Below are positions 45,184 to 56,065 of a DNA stretch of 64,000 bases, piece by piece. The position numbers were made by a program, and so were the translations under genes. Every line of letters starts with the position of its first letter. The first letter of the stretch is position 1. The notes under the pieces were generated by a model. The model searched no databases. It saw only the letters and a list, made by a program, of their open reading frames with translations, and had not been told where the DNA came from. The DNA comes from Caenorhabditis elegans (Eukaryota > Nematoda > Chromadorea > Rhabditida > Rhabditidae), in assembly GCF_000002985.6 (NCBI RefSeq), contig NC_003280.10, positions 1,364,001-1,428,000 on the forward strand, read 5' to 3'.

Positions 45184-47456
45184 TCAAAGTCTTGGCAGGC
45201 GATTGTTCTTGAATTGGCAGTTTGACGGGTCGTATCTGAAAGTTTTCTCTGGTCTGCTAAATCGTGTTGTGTAGTTTGTAGTGTCTGGCAGACCAAAGAA
45301 CTCACACTTCCTGGAACTTCTGCTTCAACTGCATTTCGTGCTCCTCTCCGCGCACCTCAATCACCATCTTGACACGTTGACTCGACATGTCGTTTCTCAT
45401 GAATGCACGTTCCTTTAAATTTTATGGTTTTTTGCTTTAAAATGACGGAAAAAAAGTTTGAAAGTCAGAAATATCACCAGTTTTCAGTGTATTTCTGAGA
45501 ATTTCAGATAATTTTTACCATTTTGAAGCCTGTGAAAGCCTACCAAATACAAATCCCGAACATTTCCACTCAGTTCGCCCACCAGGCCAGTCAATTTCGA
45601 CAGACCACCAGGCTTATCAGGAATGATAACCGACAGACGAATTACACGATGATCATACGCGAGACCTGAAGATCAGAGGTTACTGTAGGCCTATTGTAGA
45701 CCTACGCCTACCTCTCTCAATGCATCTACCCAGCGATGTACTATCGATATTTCCACCAGAGAGAATTGATACGACTGTTTTTCCCTTCAAATGATTCAGC
45801 TTTCCCGATAGAATTGCTCCGATTCCGATTGCTCCGGCGCCTTCGCAGACCACCTGGAATTCAAGAGGGTTACTGTAGAAGTATGGGATCTAGGTGTACC
45901 TTCTCATTCTCGATTAGGCGGAGAATTGCCACAGCGATGTCGTTTTCAGGCACACTAATCACTCGATCCACTTTTCCTGCAATATGTGTAGTTTGTAGTT
46001 TGTAGCAGGGTTTGGCGGTAGTTGCACGTGGTGCCAGGCTGTCCTATTACGGTTTGATCTACAAAAAATGCGATAATTTTTCGCCCAAAAATGTGACGTC
46101 AGCACTTTCTTAACCATACGAAATCAGTTGCGAACTCTGTGTCTCTTCTCACGCATTTTTTGTAGGTCTACGTAGATCAAACCGAAATGGGACACTCTGA
46201 CACCACGTGTAGTTGCCGTTTTCGGCGAATCGGCAAATCGTCGGTTTGCCGAAATATGTATATTTCGCCAGTTGTGGAATATGTCGTTTGCCGAAAAAAT
46301 ATCGTTTTCCGACCACCGCTGGTTTGTAGTTTGTAGTCTACCACATACCGATCATCGACGCAAAAGCATTCACTCCTGCATTGGGTACTGCTAATCCGTC
46401 AGCTAGTGTTGGACGAGTCGGCGTGTACACAGGGTGTCCTGCTTGGAGAGATTTCTGGAAAAAAATGTAGTTTGTAGTTTATAGTTTGTAGTTGATCATC
46501 ATCATCCTTACCACAATAGCCTGACAAGTCTCACTAACAACACCGATCACTTCGGTAGTTGGAGACAAAGCCTTGACAGCTGTGGCGACACCTGCAACCA
46601 GCCCACCACCACCAACCGGCACCAAAATCGCGTCAGGCATCTGGATTTGCTCCAGAATCTCGATTCCAGTGGTGCCGGCGCCGGCGAGAATGTCATAATG
46701 ATCGTAGCCGTTGATATAGGTTCCGTTGCTATCGTGAGCCATCCGAAGAGCGATTTCTCGGCTCTCGGCGATGTCTTCGCCCTGAACCAGAATGTTGGCT
46801 CCCAGGTCCTGGCATCGATTGATTTTCATCAATGGAGCAATCTTGGGCATCACCACGTTCACCTGAAAGTAGAGATTTTGGGTGTCTGCTAATTAAATTT
46901 TGTAGTTTGTAGTCACCTCTACACCCAACTGTTTCCCATGAAGAGAAAGTGCCAGCGCATGATTTCCAGCAGAAGCCGCGTAAACCCCGGCTTTCTTCTT
47001 CTCCTCCGGCAAATTCTGTAGAGCATATCGGGCTCCGCGCTCCTTGAAGCTTCCAGTGTCCTACAAAAAAGTGCTCAAGGCAACAGGCACGAAGACCTAC
47101 ACAGTACCTGATTGACCTCCATCTTCAGATAGATGTTCATATCGAACAATTTCGACAAACATCTGGATTTCCGGCAATCGGTACGAACGATTCCATTCTA
47201 AAACGGAAGAATTTTCACTGAAACCGGGATTCATCCCAAACCTGAATCCGATGATGAGCCATCGAAATATCGCCGAATTGCAGGATTTTCGGGTTTTCCG
47301 GGTCACAAAAGACATCCTTCAGAGGCACGGATGCCACGTGGCGGCGGTGAGCTAGAGAATCTGAAAGATGGCTGTGAAATCCACGTGGAAAAGGCTATCG
47401 GCTGGAAATTGAAACTCACAGAAAATCGACTTTCGAAGCAACGTGCTTTGAAGCAT
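45184..47456 (-). CDS. PLP-dependent serine/threonine dehydratase with ACT domain
   Basis: Eleven exons (47456-47420, 47360-47242, 47197-47108, 47060-46917, 46862-46512, 46454-46349, 45976-45900, 45853-45712, 45665-45544, 45412-45306, 45235-45184) join in phase to 448 aa. Fold-type II PLP enzyme: Schiff-base Lys88 in TGSFKERGA, cofactor Asn115 in SAGNHA, phosphate-binding glycine loop VGGGGLVAGV at ~213-222. Residues ~356-430 form an ACT regulatory domain (HRVIRLSVIIPDKPGGLSKL). It should deaminate threonine or serine to 2-oxobutyrate or pyruvate; the ACT domain suggests allosteric control, as in the catabolic TdcB/IlvA group, and is absent in animal serine racemase. The N-terminus (MLQSTLLRKSIF) is basic and hydrophobic and could be a weak mitochondrial signal. 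Ending at 45298 without the last exon is an alternative. Confidence 0.93.
46048..46190. repeat. Foldback repeat with CTACAAAAAATGCG arms, copy 3
   Basis: GTTTGATCTACAAAAAATGCG ... TGTGACGTCAGCAC ... CGCATTTTTTGTAGGTCTACG in a dehydratase intron, followed at 46200-46310 by TTTGCCG/CGGCAAA short repeats. Copy 2 is at 37318-37450. Confidence 0.78.
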
Positions 47457-47561
47457 GTTTGAAATGAGAATTGAATTTTTTTAAAATAAAATTTAAATTT
47501 CCACGGGATTTTTTTTTCAAGTTTTCCGTGACAAATTGCAAAAATTGCAATATTTTGCTTT

Positions 47562-48318
47562 GGGTCTGCTAGACTACAAACTACAAGTATCGATTTAGCA
47601 GACCCAACAGTTTTTTTTTCTAAATTTGGGTCTGCTAGACTACAAACTACACGAAATATTTAGCAGACCCAAGCAGTTTCTGATAAATTTTGGTCTGCTA
47701 GACTACAAACTACAAGTTTCGATTTATCAGACCCATGGGGGGTTTGAAGAAATTTGGGTCTGCTAGACTACAAACTACAAGATAATATTTAGCATACCCA
47801 ACCAGTTTCGGATAAATTTGGGTCTGCTAGACTACAAACTACAAGTATCGATTTAGCAGACCCAACAGTTTTTTTTTTTAATTTGGGTCTGCTAGACTAC
47901 AAACTACATGATAATATTTATCAGACCCAAGCAGTTTCTGATGAATTTTGGTCTGCTAGACTACAAACTACAAGACAATATTTAGCATACCCAACCAGTT
48001 TCGGATAAATTTGGGTCTGCTAGACTACAAACTACAAGATAATATTTAGCATACCCAACCAGTTTCGGATAAATTTGGGTCTGCTAGACTACAAACTACA
48101 AGATAATATTTAGCATACCCAACCAGTTTCGGATAAATTTGGGTCTGCTAGACTACAAACTACAAGATAATATTTAGCAGACCCAAGCAGTTTCTGATGA
48201 ATTTTGGTCTGCTAGACTACAAACTACAAGTTTCGATTTAGCAGACCCATGGGGTTTTGAAAAAATTTGGTCTGCTTGACTACAAACTACAAAGTAATAT
48301 TTAGCAGACCAACGTATT
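47562..48318 (-). repeat. Foldback repeat array between divergent genes, ~13 units
   Basis: Units GGGTCTGCTAGACTACAAACTACAAG then ATAATATTTAGCA(G/T)ACCCAA, spacer CCAGTTTCGGATAAATTT. Four consecutive units carry AGCATACCC, a stem mismatch, so a mutated unit was amplified. The array fills most of the space between the dehydratase and the downstream plus-strand genes and so sits in or near two promoters. Confidence 0.9.
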
Positions 48319-48430
48319 TTTCTTCATTTTTAACGGTTTTTTCTCGAATTTTCGCATTTTTCACCAGTTTTTTCTTCATTTTTACTTAAAAATTCTCGCA
48401 TATTTCAGGCACAGCGTCGTCGACGTGTCA

Positions 48431-48655
48431 ATGTCCGGTAACCCAAGTTGGTGGCCATATCGTCTGCCGATCGAAGAAGCTCTCAAAAAGTCTGTAGTTC
48501 TTGTCGTCGGCGTCGTCGTCGGCGCCAATGTTATTGAGCATTTCTGGAAGCCTATGGAAACATACGAAACCGAATTGGATCACGGAAAATTGGAACTTTT
48601 GCAGAAATATAAGCGCATTCATGATGAAAGAAGTGGCACGAGAAATGGAAATTAA
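48431..48655 (+). CDS. 74-aa membrane microprotein, UQCC6/Brawnin-like candidate
   Basis: Single-exon frame of 74 aa beginning MSGNPSWWPYRLP. An acceptor (TTTCAG at 48409) lies 21 nt upstream. One membrane segment, ALKKSVVLVVGVVVGANVIE, is followed by FWKP and a charged helix ELDHGKLELLQKYKRIHDER. The layout (short N-terminus, LKxxxxxLxxxxxGAxV segment, a Pro soon after, then a charged helix with EL...L.ER) resembles UQCC6/Brawnin, a mitochondrial inner-membrane microprotein needed for complex III assembly. The match is short and unproven. Its last 35 nt overlap the start of the ALKBH1-type frame, and its stop lies 2 nt before that gene's first splice donor. Confidence 0.6.
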   Translation: MSGNPSWWPYRLPIEEALKKSVVLVVGVVVGANVIEHFWKPMETYETELDHGKLELLQKYKRIHDERSGTRNGN

Positions 48656-51600
48656 AGGTTTTTTTTTTTTTTTTGGAAAATCGATAAATCAATAAATTAT
48701 CGATTTTTTGTTAATAAAACAATTGAAATCCAAAAAAAAAAATGAATTAAAATTTTTTATCGATTTTCCAAAAACCGAAAAATAAGAATTTATCGATTTT
48801 CTGAAATTTGTTAAAATTTTAAATTTATCGATTTTCTGAAATTTGTTAAAATTTTAAATTTATCGATGGTAATTAAAAAAAAAAATTTTAAAGCCGAAAA
48901 ATCTAAAATTATTGATTTTTTGAAAATCGAAAAATTTAATTTCATAGATTTTTTGAGAATTGCTGAACATGTATATTTATCGATTTTTCTTTGAAAATTA
49001 AAAAAAAAATTACGGCACTGAAATTTTGAAATCTGAAAAAAAAGTAGTTTTCGAAATTTTGAAAAATACCAATTTTCTATTATTTCGGATTCAAAAAAAT
49101 ATTTTTTTTAAAAAATTAATAATTAAATTGAGTTTTTTTTTTGATTTTTCGATTTTTAAAGTCAAACTTGTAGTTTGTAGTCTGGCAGACCCAAAAAACC
49201 CGCTATTTTTTCAGAAAAATGTTGATTTTTAAAATTTCATAGTTAAAAATCAGAAAACGAAAAAATAACGACTTTTAAAATTTTTTCGATATTATGAAAA
49301 AAAAAGAATAAAACAATTTTACCGATTTTTTGAAAATTGAAAAATTGAATTTATTGGTTTTTTTTTGAAAATCCAAAAAATAGTTTAAATTTTGAAAATT
49401 GTTTGTTATGAAAAAAACGAATTTTTTTGAATATTTTGGAAAAAAAAGAAGAAAAAACTAATTATCGATTTTTTGAAAATCGAAATTTTCAATTTATTTT
49501 AAAACTTTTTTTCAGTGACGAAATGCGGAAATTTTTGCTTAAAAAACGCCAGAAAAAATACAATTTTTTAGCTAAATTGTAGTTTGTAGTCTGGCAGACC
49601 CAAAAAAAAATCGTTATTTTTTTCCAGAAAAAGAAATCGATCAATACGCGGGATCCTCCGGGGAAGACTCTGACGACGGATCCAATTTATTCAAAGCTGT
49701 TTTCAAAAAATATAAGAAACGAAAGCCTCCACCGGACGTTTCTGACGTTATTGGTAAGGAAAATTGGCTTAAAAAATGTAATTTTTTGCATATTTCAGAC
49801 GTCAAAAGCTCTTCGCTGCTCCAATCAAAATTAGTATTTAGTACGGATGAGATCACATCAGAGACGACATCGCTTGCTGAGAGATTAGGTAGAAATATTG
49901 GGTCTCGCAGCGAAAAATAATAGAAAATCTAATGACTGTCCTTTTTTTTTTGGGCAAAAAAAAAGATCAATTTTGAGTCCTCTAGCTTTAAGACTAACCA
50001 TTGTTTTTAACAAAATTAAACAACTTTTTATTTTTGCCCAATTTTTTTTCAGGCCTTTTTTTTGGGCAAAAAAATAATTTTTCTAAAAACGTTCGAAACC
50101 ATATTAAATTGAAAAAGGACAATTTTTTAAGGTTCAGAAAGCAAATTTGAATCCTCTAGCTTTAAAAATAACCATTTTAAAGGAATTTCAAAATTGTGAT
50201 TTTTGCCACTTTTTTGCCTTTTTTGGGTTACCGGTTGCCGAAATTTCGAAAAATGACGATTTTCCTAACTTTGAATGGCGAAATTTTTGAAATTATTTGA
50301 ATGCCGGCTGCTAAAAATTTTGAGTTTCTCCAAAATTTTTAGGTTGCCGGTTGCCAAAAAAACTCGAAAATAACCGATTTTTGCGAATTTCAATTGCTGA
50401 AAATTTGAATTTCTATTTTTTGCGAATTTTCAGGTCTAATTGCTCCATCCGAGTGGCGTGTCTATTGGTTTCCCGATCGTATTGGCCTATATCTCCTGCC
50501 AAGCCTTTTACGGAAGGAAAAATCGACAATGTGGATGAAACGAGCGTTCAAGTACGCCGAACCACCGAATATCACGAATTTGACGCTTCACGGAAAGGAT
50601 GTGCTCACGTTAGTGTTGGTCTGCTCTGGACAACAAACTACAACTTTTGATTTAGCAGACCCATGGGGTTTTGAAGAAAATTGGTCTGCTAGACTACAAA
50701 CTACAACTTTTGATTTAGCAGACCCATGGGGTTTTGAAGAAAATTGGTCTGCTAGACTACATACTACAACTTTTGATTTAGCAGACCCATGGTGTTTTGA
50801 AGAAAATTGGTCTGCTAGACTACAAACTACAACTTTTGATTTAGCAGACCCATGGGGTTTTGAAGAAAATTGGTCTGCTAGACTACATACTACAACTTTT
50901 GATTTAGCAGACCCATGGTGTTTTGAAGAAAATTGGTCTGCTAGACTACAAACTACAACTTTTGATTTAGCAGACCCATGGTGTTTTGAAGAAAATTGGT
51001 CTGCTAGACTACAAACTACAACTTTTGATTTAGCAGACCCATGGGGTTTTGAAGAAAATTGGTCTGCTGGACTACAAACTACAACTTTTTTTCCAAAAAT
51101 CTGAAGAAAAGTCAATTTTTCTATGTTTTTTTTTTTGAAGAAAAAAGCTAAAAAATATTTTTAAAAACAAGATTTTTTTCAGAAAATCACAAAAAAAAAA
51201 CCCCCCGAAAATTGTTGTTTTCTAGTGTTTTTTTAACAAAAAATTTCCAATTTTCAGAAAAATAAAGTACAAATATGAAAATTTTCCAAAAAATCGGAAT
51301 TTCAATGTTTTTTTAGAAAAAAGTTGGAAAAATCAAAAAAAAAATTGAATTGTAGATTTTTTGTGTTTTTTTAGAGAAAAAAATGGAAAAAAAACTTATC
51401 AAATTTATTAATTTTTTTTGTCAATTTAAATTGTTTTTATTAATTTAAACAAATTGGGTCTGCTAGTAGACTACAAACTACACATTTTCTATTAATAACT
51501 GGAACAATTTTCGATTTTCAAAAAATCCCAGGAAAAACGATAATTATCGATTTTTGTCTATCTTTGAAAAAAAAATCGGAAACATTTTTTTCTGAAAAAT

Positions 51601-54600
51601 TGAAATTTAAAAAAATAGAAAAAATGGCTGAAAAACTCAATTTTCAAAGCAATAAATCAAAAAAAATTGTAGATTTTTAGTTTTTTTTAAAGAAAAAAAT
51701 CCATTTTAAACGATTTTTATATTTTTTCAACAACAAAAAAATTTTGGTCTGCTAGACTACAAACTACACAGTTTTTTCCCGAAAAATTTTTTCGAAGAAA
51801 AAGCTTTAACAAATGTCGCAAAACGAATTTTTTTTCTGCGTTTTTCAAAAAGACCGTTTTAAATATTAATAAAAATCTGATAAATACCAAAAAAAAAATT
51901 GATTTTGGTGTTTTTTTTAAGAAAAAAACCATTTTAATCGATTTCTATATATTTTCAGAAAAAAAATTTTGGTCTGCGCTAGACTACAAACTACACTACA
52001 TATTTAGCATTTCAGAGATCCTACACTCCTAACAAAAGGGCTCCGCTGGACAACACTCGGTGTTGAATATGACTGGAATTCAAAAGAATATCCACCGAAT
52101 GGACGGCCCGTGCCAGAGGAACTTTATCAATTGGGAAATGTTCGTTTACTTATTATACGACGGCAACACAAAATTCTGAGAATGCGTACTGCGCAACATA
52201 TTTGACGAGCAAATAATATCTCAAACTACAGTAATCCCTGAAATGACTACTGTAGCGTTTGTGTGTCGATTTACGAGTAATAATCCAGTCCGTAAATCGA
52301 CACAAGCGCTACAGTAATCATTTCAAAGATTACTGTAGTTTGAGATATTTTTTGCTGCGCGTCAAATATGTTGTGCAGTACGCATTTTTAGAGTTTTGTG
52401 TTATATGTGTAATACTGATGACTACCTAAAAATCCAAAAAAAAAAAAACAATTTTCAGCTTATCAGTCGATCTCTGAAATTGGGCGACATGAAGCCGGAC
52501 GCCACAATTCTCAATTATTATCCACCGAAATCAGCACTGTCGCCACACGTTGATAAGTGAGGTTTTTCAAAAAAAAATTTGAAAAAAAAAGTTATTTTTA
52601 TTTTTTTAATTAAAAAGAAGAACTTGAGCTGGTTTTTTTCTGAGAAAAAAATTATGAAAATGAAGCTAAAACAACTAAAAAAGACGTTTTTTAATGGAAA
52701 TTGAAATTTTCGAAATTAAATTTTATAGACAATAAGTTTTTTTGTTGAAGTTTCTAAAATAAAAACACAAATTAGTACTGATTTTGAATTTTAAATTATT
52801 TCGTAAAATTAACATTTAAAAAATTATGAAAATATTCAAAGTTTGAACTAATTTTTCAGAGAGATTTCGAAAATTTCATGTTTCTGAATTATACCTAACG
52901 AAAAAATTTAAATATTCGCATTAAAAATCCATTTTTCATAATTTTTGAAACTACACAAATATTCTCAATTATAAAAAAATAAATTTGTTTTTAAATTTAA
53001 ATACAACTAAAATAACGAAAAAAAATCGAAAAAAAATCTTGAAAAATTTGAAAAAATAAATGTTTTTCTACAAAAAAAAAAAGTTTTGTGATTTTTTCGT
53101 TTATATTTGAAAAAAAAATTGAAAATTTGAAAAAAAAAACACCCTAAATTGTCAAAATTTTAAATTAATCGCTGATCGATAAATTTAAAATTTTCGATTT
53201 TCGAAAATTCCTCTGAAAAAAATTAATTTTTAAACAGTTTTAAAATTAATTTAAAATCAATAAAACTACGAAATTATAATTATTTAAAAAACAATTATAT
53301 TTCGAAAATTTTCGAATTTTTTGAAAATTAATTTTTTTGAAGAATTTCGAAAATAGAGCTGAAATAGCAAAAACATTTTAAAAAGTTTTTAAAAATTTAA
53401 TTTCTCAAAAAAAAAAGCTTCTAATTTCGAATACTATATTATTTTGTTTAAAAAATTTTTTTGGTCGGTTAAAAAATAAAAAGGTTTAAAAAAATTTTTC
53501 AATTTTTTAAAATGAAATTTTTCCAAAAATAGACCTAAAATAACGATAAAATTTCAGAAATTCTTCTGAAAAAAAATTTTTAACGTTTTGAAAATGATTA
53601 CTACGAAATTCGTAAAAAAACTTTTTTTTTCTATTTCAGAAAAATTTTAAAATAAAAATAACAACAAAAACTCCTGAAAAAAAAATTCAAAAAAGATTGG
53701 AAGTTTAGGAAAATTTTAATTTTTGGTCAAAAAGTTGCCTTCAGAAATTTTAATTATTTATTTTCCGAATTTCAAAAATTCGATCCAATTATCGTTTTTT
53801 TTTCGAACAAATTTTGCAAAATAAAAAATAAATTTAAGAATAATTGATTAATTTTAACAAAAATTTTAAAAAAAAATCCAATTTTCTATAAAAATGGGAA
53901 AATCTTCATTTTGTTTCGATTTTTATTCAGAAAAAAATAAAAATCAATTTTTCAAAATGAAAATTCCCGGCAATTTGCCGATTTGCCGATTTGCCGAAAG
54001 TCGAGAAATCAATTTGCCGAACGGCAGATGTTATTTTTTTGAAAGTTGTAAAATTATGTAAATACGAAAAACATTTATTAAAGTTGAAAAAAAATTGAAC
54101 TGAAGAATTTGGTTAACAACAAAAACATTGAAAATTTAATAGGAAATTTCTTTTTTTTTTGTTGAAATTTCCATAATTAAAAAAATTAGTACTAAATTTG
54201 AATACTATATTATTTTTAAAAAAGTACGGTTTAAAAAATATAAAAAAATATTCGAATTTTGGACTAATTTTACGGAGAAAGTTAGAAAATTTCATTACAG
54301 AGAACTTTTTTATATTCATTTTTAGAAATTAAAAAAAATTATGGAAAAAAAAATTTAATTTTTAATTAAAAATTACTTTTTTTTTTTTTTAATAGAGCTA
54401 AAACTAGAAAATTCTGAAATTTTTTTTTGAAAAACAAGAACAATGATATCGTAAAAGCTCCTAAAAATCCAAAAAAAAAATTGGAAATTTAGAAAAATTT
54501 CAATTTTTGGTAGAATTGTGAAATTGTTTCAAAAAAAAATTATTTTAAAATGTGTTAAAAATTTTTCAAACTAAATTCAGAATTTTCCAAATCCGAACGT

Positions 54601-56065
54601 TCAGCGGCCCCACTAATCTCAATTAAAATTAAATTACGAAAATTTTCAGATTATTTAAAAATTCTACAAAAAATACGTTTTTTTTTGTGAAAATAAAATT
54701 TTTTCAATTTTTCAATTTCTGGTCAAAAAGTTGCCTTCAGAAATTTTTTTTTTTGGAATTTGGAAAAAATTGCTAAATTTCAATTTTTCAAAATTAAGAA
54801 TAATCGATTAATTTTAACAAAAATTAAAAAAAAAATTACATTTTCTATAAAAATGGGAAAACCTTTACTTTTTCCGATTGTTCACTGCAACATTCTCCTC
54901 AGGAGGGACGAGGAAAAGTGGTTTCTAGGCCATGGCCGAGGGGCCGACAAGTTTCAGCGGCAATTTATCTTGCTTTGTTTTCCGCCTGTTTTCTTTTGTT
55001 TTTCACTGATTTTTTTCGTTTTTTCTTAATAAAACTGATAAATAAATATTTTTTGCAGATGCTAAAACAATTTCCAAGTAAAAAAATTATGTATTCAGTG
55101 GGCAAGCAGCGGTGAAAGTGGTCAATGCAATATGATGGATTACGGGAATACAAAACCTAAACTTTTTCTGAAACATGATACATATGATGCTTAGATGCTG
55201 AAATTACCTGATTTTCATAACGAGACCGCTGAAAAAGTTTTGAGATTTTCATAATTCAACTTTTTGTGCCAAAATCTCGACTTTTTCACAAAAAAAGTTG
55301 AATTTTGAAAACCTCAAAACTTTTTCAGCGGTCTCGTTATGAAAATCAGGTAGCTTCAGCATCTAACCATCATATGTATCATGTTTCAGAAAAAGTTTAG
55401 GTTTTGTATTCCCGTAATCCATCATATTACATTAACCACTTTCACCGCTGCTTGCCCACAGAATACATAATTTTTTTACTTGGAAATTGTTTTAGCATCT
55501 GCAAAAAGTATTTATTTATCAGTTTTATTAAGAAAAAACGAAAAAAATCAGTGAAAAACGAAAGAAAACAGGCGGAAAACAAAGCAAGATAAATGGCCGC
55601 TGAAACTTGTCGGCCCCTCGGCCATGGCCTAGAAACCACTTTTCCTCGTCCCTCGTGAGGAAAAAGTTGCAATGTGTTATTCAGAAAAAATATGAAAATT
55701 AATTTTTCAAATTCTTTTTTTTTTCCAGATCCGAACGTTCAGCGGCCCCGCTAATCTCAATGTCTCTCGGCCAAACAGCAATCTATCTATCCGGTACAAT
55801 CGACCTCTCCTCGGAGCCCCCAATCCCAATTTGGCTCCGTAATGGAGATTTTCTTATAATGCACGGAGATCAACGTCTCGTGTACCATGCAATTCCGTGT
55901 ATCGGCTCAATTCCGAAGCGACGTGGCAATCGTGGATCTATGATGGATGAGGATCAGGAGCATTTTGAGCCGCCACGTGGCAATGATGATGTGGATCAAT
56001 CGATTATTGATTATTTGAATTCTAGTAGAGTTAATTTTACGATTCGGCAGGTTAATCCGAATTAG
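48621..56065 (+). CDS. ALKBH1-type 2-oxoglutarate/Fe(II) dioxygenase
   Basis: Seven exons (48621-48657, 49628-49753, 49799-49888, 50434-50608, 52016-52139, 52459-52556, 55729-56065) join in phase to 328 aa. The N-terminus FKAVFKKYKKRKPPPDVSDVID matches ALKBH1. Core: LRWTTLGVEYDWNSKEYP, LNYYPPKSALSPHVD. Fe ligands are His214, Asp216 (HVD) and His270; 2-oxoglutarate Arg is Arg317 or Arg323 in RVNFTIRQV. ALKBH1 enzymes demethylate or oxidise tRNA (m1A, m5C) and have been tied to mitochondrial translation and DNA 6mA; which applies here cannot be read from sequence. The start lies in the frame of the upstream microprotein; a second ATG is at 48645. Introns 1, 4 and 6 are long (0.97, 1.4 and 3.2 kb) and full of repeats. 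Confidence 0.9.
49935..50220 (-). repeat. Dispersed copy of the 301-bp repeat
   Basis: On the minus strand this carries the same order of blocks as the tandem array at 60 kb: TGGCAAAAATCAC, AAAATGGTTATTTTTAAAGC, TAGAGGATTCAAATTTG, AATTGTCCTTTTTCAATTTAATATGGTTTCGAACG and AAAAGGACAGTCATTAGA. In intron 3 of the ALKBH1-type gene. Confidence 0.8.
50617..51085 (-). repeat. Foldback array with exact 60-bp period, 8 units
   Basis: Eight units of GGTCTGCTAGACTACAAACTACAAC, TTTTGATTTAGCAGACCCATGG, GGTTTTGAAGAAAATT; differences are few (CATACTAC, GGTG). Because 60 is a multiple of 3 both strands are open across the array. It begins 8 nt after the exon 4 donor of the ALKBH1-type gene. Confidence 0.92.
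52170..52405. mobile_element. ~235-bp palindromic element
   Basis: GAATGCGTACTGCGCAACATATTTGACG ... ATCTCAAACTACAGTAAT and their complements form long arms with CGATTTACG/CGTAAATCG at the centre. Inside intron 5 of the ALKBH1-type gene. Confidence 0.85.
53727..53965 (+). repeat. Intron segment, copy 1 (empty site)
   Basis: GGTCAAAAAGTTGCCTTCAGAAATTTT through TTTTCTATAAAAATGGGAAAA to TTATTCAGAAAAAA and CAATTTTTCAAA recurs at 54717-55722, where a palindrome is inserted. Here the corresponding site (53918-53926) is uninterrupted. Confidence 0.75.
54585..54622 (+). pseudogene. Relic copy of the last exon's start
   Basis: ATCCGAACGTTCAGCGGCCC followed by CACTAATCTCAA repeats the first ~33 nt of the exon at 55729 with one change. 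The acceptor AG is mutated to AA (TTTTCCAA), so it should not be spliced. Homology stops after this; nothing coding follows. Confidence 0.85.
54880..55676. mobile_element. 797-bp palindromic element in last intron
   Basis: Near-perfect inverted arms of ~380 bp meet near 55277; outer ends are CACTGCAAC.TTCTCCTC and complement. The same 65-aa frame appears on both strands for that reason. Arms contain TTTCTAGGCCATGGCCGAGG, a module also seen in the element at 15173-16144. It interrupts copy 2 of a duplicated intron segment. Confidence 0.92.

Follow-up and report, generated by a model that had tools for sequence, protein, structure and literature searches.

Two-protein transcripts that include a BRAWNIN-family member (in Drosophila) and a small protein that overlaps a conserved gene (in Caenorhabditis elegans) have already been reported. 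In C. elegans, the small protein azyx-1 is described as overlapping the 5' portion of the conserved gene zyx-1, with a scanning model for its translation (PMC10575671). In Drosophila, sloth1 and sloth2 are described as homologues of human SMIM4 (UQCC5) and C12orf73/BRAWNIN (UQCC6) and are encoded by consecutive ORFs with 5 bases between them (PMC9681215). The vertebrate BRAWNIN report states that this protein is not conserved in nematodes (PMC7066179). The C. elegans homologue of the AlkB-type dioxygenase ALKBH1 has been named Y51H7C.5 (PMC7957426). A search of open-licence PubMed Central articles found no literature that pairs ALKBH1 with BRAWNIN/UQCC6/C12orf73.

The locus described here lies in a stretch of 64,000 nucleotides of C. 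elegans (NC_003280.10, positions 1,364,001 to 1,428,000; hereafter the window, to which all coordinates refer), where a 74-aa microprotein ORF stands 5' of an ALKBH1 gene on the forward strand. Comparison with azyx-1/zyx-1 reveals the same animal, a small protein at the 5' end of a conserved partner gene, and a possible scanning model. However, azyx-1 is backed by mass-spectrometry peptides and functional work as reported (PMC10575671), whereas translation of the microprotein and its overlap with ALKBH1 are predicted, and a shared start codon is about as good a model. The likeness to sloth1-sloth2 lies in a single-pass mitochondrial microprotein of the BRAWNIN family in a two-protein gene, although membership of the worm protein in this family is putative. 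The partner differs, being another complex III assembly factor in the fly (PMC9681215) and ALKBH1 in the worm.

The microprotein and its similarity to UQCC6

The ATG at 48431 starts an ORF of 74 codons (48431–48655) with its stop codon at 48653–48655, and translation confirms the initial annotation in this respect. The codon log-odds score of this ORF is 0.223 per codon, which ranks second among the 55 ATG ORFs of 60–90 aa in the window and is close to that of ALKBH1 exon 2 (0.231 per codon). Its G+C content is 44%, compared with 27% and 19.5% in the AT-rich flanks (48311–48409 and 48658–49627, respectively). Under a first-order random model with the ORF's own composition, 698 of 20,000 sequences were open over 73 codons, and 11 of 20,000 were both open and as high in codon score as the microprotein. 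Sequences drawn with intron composition were open in 109 of 20,000 cases. Based on this codon score and on openness relative to the random models, the 74-aa ORF is very likely a real gene. Its 5' flank contains a splice-acceptor-like sequence (atatttcag, 48400–48408) that would place the exon start at 48409, 22 bases 5' of the ATG, and the 48408/48409 junction is probably an SL1 trans-splice site. On the 3' side, two AATAAA motifs at 48691 and 48713 (together spanning 48691–48718) are located 36 and 58 bases beyond the stop codon, and either could terminate a microprotein-only mRNA.

The microprotein has a single hydrophobic segment, with a maximum 17-residue hydropathy of 2.09. Vertebrate UQCC6/BRAWNIN is similar in size (71 aa) and likewise has one N-terminal hydrophobic segment (PMC7066179). 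For sequence comparison, a human UQCC6 sequence of 71 aa served as the query; it matches the Pfam model DUF4516 (PF14990) at 1.6e-22. Local alignment between the microprotein and this sequence has a score of 49 and contains 17 identities over 56 aligned residues. This score was reached by seven of 20,000 shuffles that preserved three segments (Gumbel P 1.5e-4) and by none of 306 control ORFs, 96 of which have a hydrophobic segment. The same pair gave an E-value of 4.3e-5 in a single-pair phmmer comparison, and 23.5% identity over 34 residues with an E-value of 0.018 in BLASTP (word size 2). When the two halves were considered separately, the N-terminal half had a P of 0.005, and the C-terminal half was not significant (P 0.18). 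Judged by the shuffles and the control ORFs, the similarity to the human sequence exceeds that expected from composition.

Unlike the human query, the microprotein has no match to PF14990 up to an E-value of 10. A genome search with this model did not pick the microprotein ORF; its sole place in the genome (G000:C2:6110535) was dropped with 15.3 bits against a cut-off of 27 (E 1.98). The genome search with the human sequence was empty, an outcome that carries no weight. The UQCC6-like identity suggested by the initial annotation is thus moderately supported by the alignment score, shuffles, and controls, with the missing Pfam match on the other side. We consider it rather likely, with considerable room for doubt, that the microprotein is an ortholog of UQCC6, and its mitochondrial function is putative. 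If true, a worm UQCC6 would run counter to the reported lack of BRAWNIN conservation in nematodes (PMC7066179). Among other candidate relatives, UQCC5/SMIM4 was rejected: its score was 22, and 44% of 3000 shuffles as well as 131 of the 306 control ORFs scored at least as high. No relatives were found in the bacterial/archaeal genome contigs or the viral contigs scanned; the lone match among the former (L003) shares LPIEEALKKS with the microprotein and was set aside, its 635-aa frame reading as bacterial acyl-CoA synthetase-like.

The ALKBH1 gene and its first coding exon

Six exons on the forward strand join without an internal stop codon between 49628 and 56065, namely exon 2 (49628–49753), exon 3 (49799–49888), exon 4 (50434–50608), exon 5 (52016–52139), exon 6 (52459–52556), and exon 7 with the stop codon (55729–56065). 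When these are preceded by the first exon proposed in the initial annotation (MMKEVAREMEIK plus G, 48621–48657, with donor AAG/GTTTTT), the product is 328 aa. Residues 27–325 of this product align with residues 16–346 of human ALKBH1 (6ie2; E 3.5e-33), and the product matches Pfam PF13532 (2OG-FeII_Oxy_2) at 1.8e-40, so the claim that the joined exon is in phase with ALKBH1 sequence holds. Among 21 sequences compared, the five best matches are all ALKBH1 (E 3.5e-33 to 1.3e-30) and the next is an AlkB (1.3e-12); the closest solved relative is therefore ALKBH1 rather than another AlkB. The HVD in exon 6 and a later H, which we take to be the iron-binding residues, align with the human protein, as does the end RVNFTIRQV. 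By homology, the six-exon gene encodes an ALKBH1 homologue, which we infer to be Y51H7C.5. The worm enzyme itself is without oddity, and its 5' end alone is in question.

The frame of exon 2 runs upstream to a stop codon at 49573 without an in-frame ATG. All ATG-to-GT first exons that keep phase with exon 2 were enumerated between 47300 and 49590. Among the 16 fitting combinations, nine are located in the microprotein exon, seven lie upstream (47331–48206), and none is found in the gap 48658–49590 in frame with the acceptor at 49628. Because exon 2 lacks an ATG and the gap lacks an ATG-GT first exon, the first coding exon of ALKBH1 is most likely the exon of the microprotein. It is therefore likely that the two genes belong to a shared transcription unit. 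The initial annotation had named an ALKBH1 first exon elsewhere as evidence against its model; the gap contains none, but seven of the 16 combinations do lie upstream.

Phase is kept by five donors in the microprotein exon, at 48437, 48446, 48461, 48632, and 48657. Donor strength was assessed with a matrix derived from 200 kb of this genome in four settings (82, 69, 54, and 44 acceptors); the trained motif is worm-like but diluted, and the bit scores quoted are those of the third setting (54 acceptors). The scores are 4.41 bits for 48657, 4.4 for 48446, 4.3 for 48437, 3.45 for 48461, and 2.4 for 48632. Donor 48657 outscores 48437 by 0.2 to 1.0 bits in every setting, a comparison that did not include 48446. 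About 20% of the 2962 GT dinucleotides in the window match the scores of 48437 (CCG/GTAACC) and 48446 (CAA/GTTGGT), and 19% match that of 48657. The matrix gives no choice among these three donors. As for the other ALKBH1 donors, those of exons 2, 4, and 6 beat 48657 in all four settings, that of exon 5 does so in three with one tie, and that of exon 3 in one of the four. Three other trainings were set aside. A matrix from 38 acceptors, with an unclear motif, placed 48657 above 48437 and 48446 far above both (5.56 bits); a second training kept 7 acceptors in one setting, which placed 48437 above 48657, and none in the other three; and a further four-setting matrix was diluted and gave no donor scores. 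Fusion of the microprotein to ALKBH1 through donor 48632 (GAA/GTGGCA) would be in phase, but was rejected given that this donor is the weakest of the five.

Models for two proteins from one 5' exon

Our tentative preference, held at somewhat less than even confidence, is that both proteins start at the same ATG (48431), with a donor located just after it. The pre-mRNA would be SL1 trans-spliced at 48408/48409. If its 5' end were left unspliced and cleaved after the AATAAA at 48691 or 48713, the transcript would produce the 74-aa UQCC6-like membrane microprotein. If donor 48437 (ATGTCCG/gtaacc) were instead joined to 49628, the segment 48431–48437 would be the first coding segment of an ALKBH1 that starts with MSEKEIDQYAG.... 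With the alternative donor 48446 and the same ATG, ALKBH1 would start with MSGNPKKEIDQYAG... (predicted N-terminus, MSGNPKKEIDQY...). The choice of protein would be set by splicing versus early polyadenylation, and leaky scanning would not be needed.

Several observations are in favor of this shared start. The scores of donors 48437 and 48446 are close to that of 48657, and the +1 frame from 48528, which would be in the ALKBH1 frame if donor 48657 were used, has a codon score of 0.034 per codon, whereas the microprotein has 0.22 and exon 2 has 0.23. In addition, a shared start would place 16 residues before the region aligned with human ALKBH1, compared with 15 in the human protein; this number is derived from the alignment of residue 27 of the 328-aa product with human residue 16, the shared-start product being 10 residues shorter. 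Such a match in N-terminal length provides weak support. On the other hand, the exon from acceptor to donor would be merely 29 bases long, both donors are weak (with 48437 below 48657 in all four settings), and the codons of 48621–48656 score as coding-like.

The model of the initial annotation, in which a single spliced mRNA contains the entire microprotein ORF together with ALKBH1 in the +1 frame through donor 48657, is somewhat unlikely by our estimate. ALKBH1 would start at ATG 48621 or 48624 (or at 48528 or 48645) after leaky scanning past 48431, which has a weak context: its −3 base is T, compared with A at 48624 and G at 48645. The reading frames and phase fit this model. ATG 48621 and 48624 are both in the +1 frame, a GT directly follows base 48657, and the join from 48657 to 49628 keeps phase. 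However, 48621 is not the first ATG of this frame, as 48528 lies upstream in frame without a stop codon between them (and another is found at 48645), and the proposed splice at 48658 competes with four other phase-compatible donors in the same exon. Also consistent with the model are the score of donor 48657, which is at least as good as those of the alternatives, the 12 codons of 48621–48656 (0.15 per codon, coding-like but too short to weigh), and the azyx-1/zyx-1 precedent in the same species as described (PMC10575671).

The overlap itself was compared with expectation by fixing the amino acids of the microprotein and redrawing synonymous codons 200,000 times under each of two schemes (genome codon usage, or a shuffle of the ORF's own codons). 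From 48621 onward, the +1 frame stays open to its end in 100% of the draws. The last open run contains an ATG no later than 48621 in 81% of the draws with genome codon usage and in 100% with shuffling, and the frame is open from 48528 in 31% and 87%, respectively. The ATGATG at 48621 arises from the codons for His-Asp-Glu (CAT GAT GAA). Thus, in this synonymous-draw test, the second frame is not open beyond what the microprotein sequence forces. Because the codons of the microprotein largely dictate that the second frame is open, the frame overlap does not exceed chance expectation. The longer +1 frame (48528–48657), which is in the ALKBH1 frame if donor 48657 is used, lacks a coding signal, with scores near zero in two computations (0.034 and −0.035 per codon).

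The order of start codons poses another difficulty for overlapping frames. The ATGs at 48431, 48528, and 48554 are all 5' of 48621, and a scanning ribosome would meet 48528, in the ALKBH1 frame, before 48621. The initial annotation offered leaky scanning or reinitiation as a means of coupling expression. Leaky scanning alone would serve, but reinitiation is unlikely because ATG 48621 precedes the microprotein stop codon by 32 bases and backward movement would be required. With regard to one mRNA for two proteins, the shared transcription unit is likely, but the frame overlap is not established because a shared start that uses another donor accounts for ALKBH1 about equally well.

A first exon upstream of 48409 or outside the examined region, with no part played by the microprotein exon, is very unlikely. 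The seven upstream combinations (47331–48206) are compatible with it, and sequence before 47300 was beyond the range of the enumeration. However, four of the seven start inside a tandem array (47559–48310), and the other three share one ATG, 47331, just before this array.

Alternative trans-splicing, in which an internal acceptor at 48604 takes the spliced leader and ATG 48621 becomes the first on a separate ALKBH1 mRNA, would remove the scanning problem and is highly unlikely in our view. An acceptor-like sequence (cttttgcag, 48596–48604) is present 16 bases 5' of ATG 48621, but it is a candidate by appearance, and worm acceptors rarely have a G before the CAG. Moreover, donor 48657 would still be required. 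Finally, an ordinary operon with ALKBH1 as the downstream gene and its own spliced-leader site in the gap 48658–49627 is scarcely plausible: acceptor-like TTTCAG sequences occur at 49209–49214 and 49510–49515, but no ATG-GT first exon in the gap fits, and looser rules that allow GC donors and other acceptors give five poor candidates, of which four depend on a non-consensus GC donor and the fifth combines a weak GT donor (2.62 bits) with a different acceptor.

The full proposal is doubtful. Here, a single mRNA would encode a BRAWNIN/UQCC6 of nematodes and ALKBH1, the mitochondrial tRNA dioxygenase, in overlapping frames, and complex III assembly would be coupled to decoding by the mitochondrial methionine tRNA. 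If the overlapping-frame reading were true, the phenotypes of worm ALKBH1 knockdown would in part reflect loss of the microprotein. If the transcript is shared, a probable complex III assembly factor could be lost as well when worm ALKBH1 is targeted by RNAi or deletion, and the worm result of a study by Wagner et al., which reportedly concerns C. elegans, could then be confounded.

Repeats and neighboring frames

The segment that holds the acceptor of ALKBH1 exon 7 and the first bases of that exon (55721–55761) is duplicated in the preceding intron at 54583–54623. The duplicate is 41 bases long and 95% identical, with CAA in the intronic copy in place of CAG at the real acceptor. Between the two copies lies a long hairpin (54883–55674) with 392-base arms that are 95% complementary and an 8-base spacer, which is probably a foldback transposon. 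A 63/64-base unit (GGTCTGCTAGACTACAAACTACAA...) forms two tandem arrays, one directly upstream of the microprotein (47559–48310) and the other at the start of ALKBH1 intron 4 (50616–51089). Open frames on the opposite strand at 46729–47124 are divergent from the microprotein, and the one at 46893–47060 (TGSFKERGA..., ASAGNHALA) resembles a serine/threonine dehydratase or racemase in its motifs.
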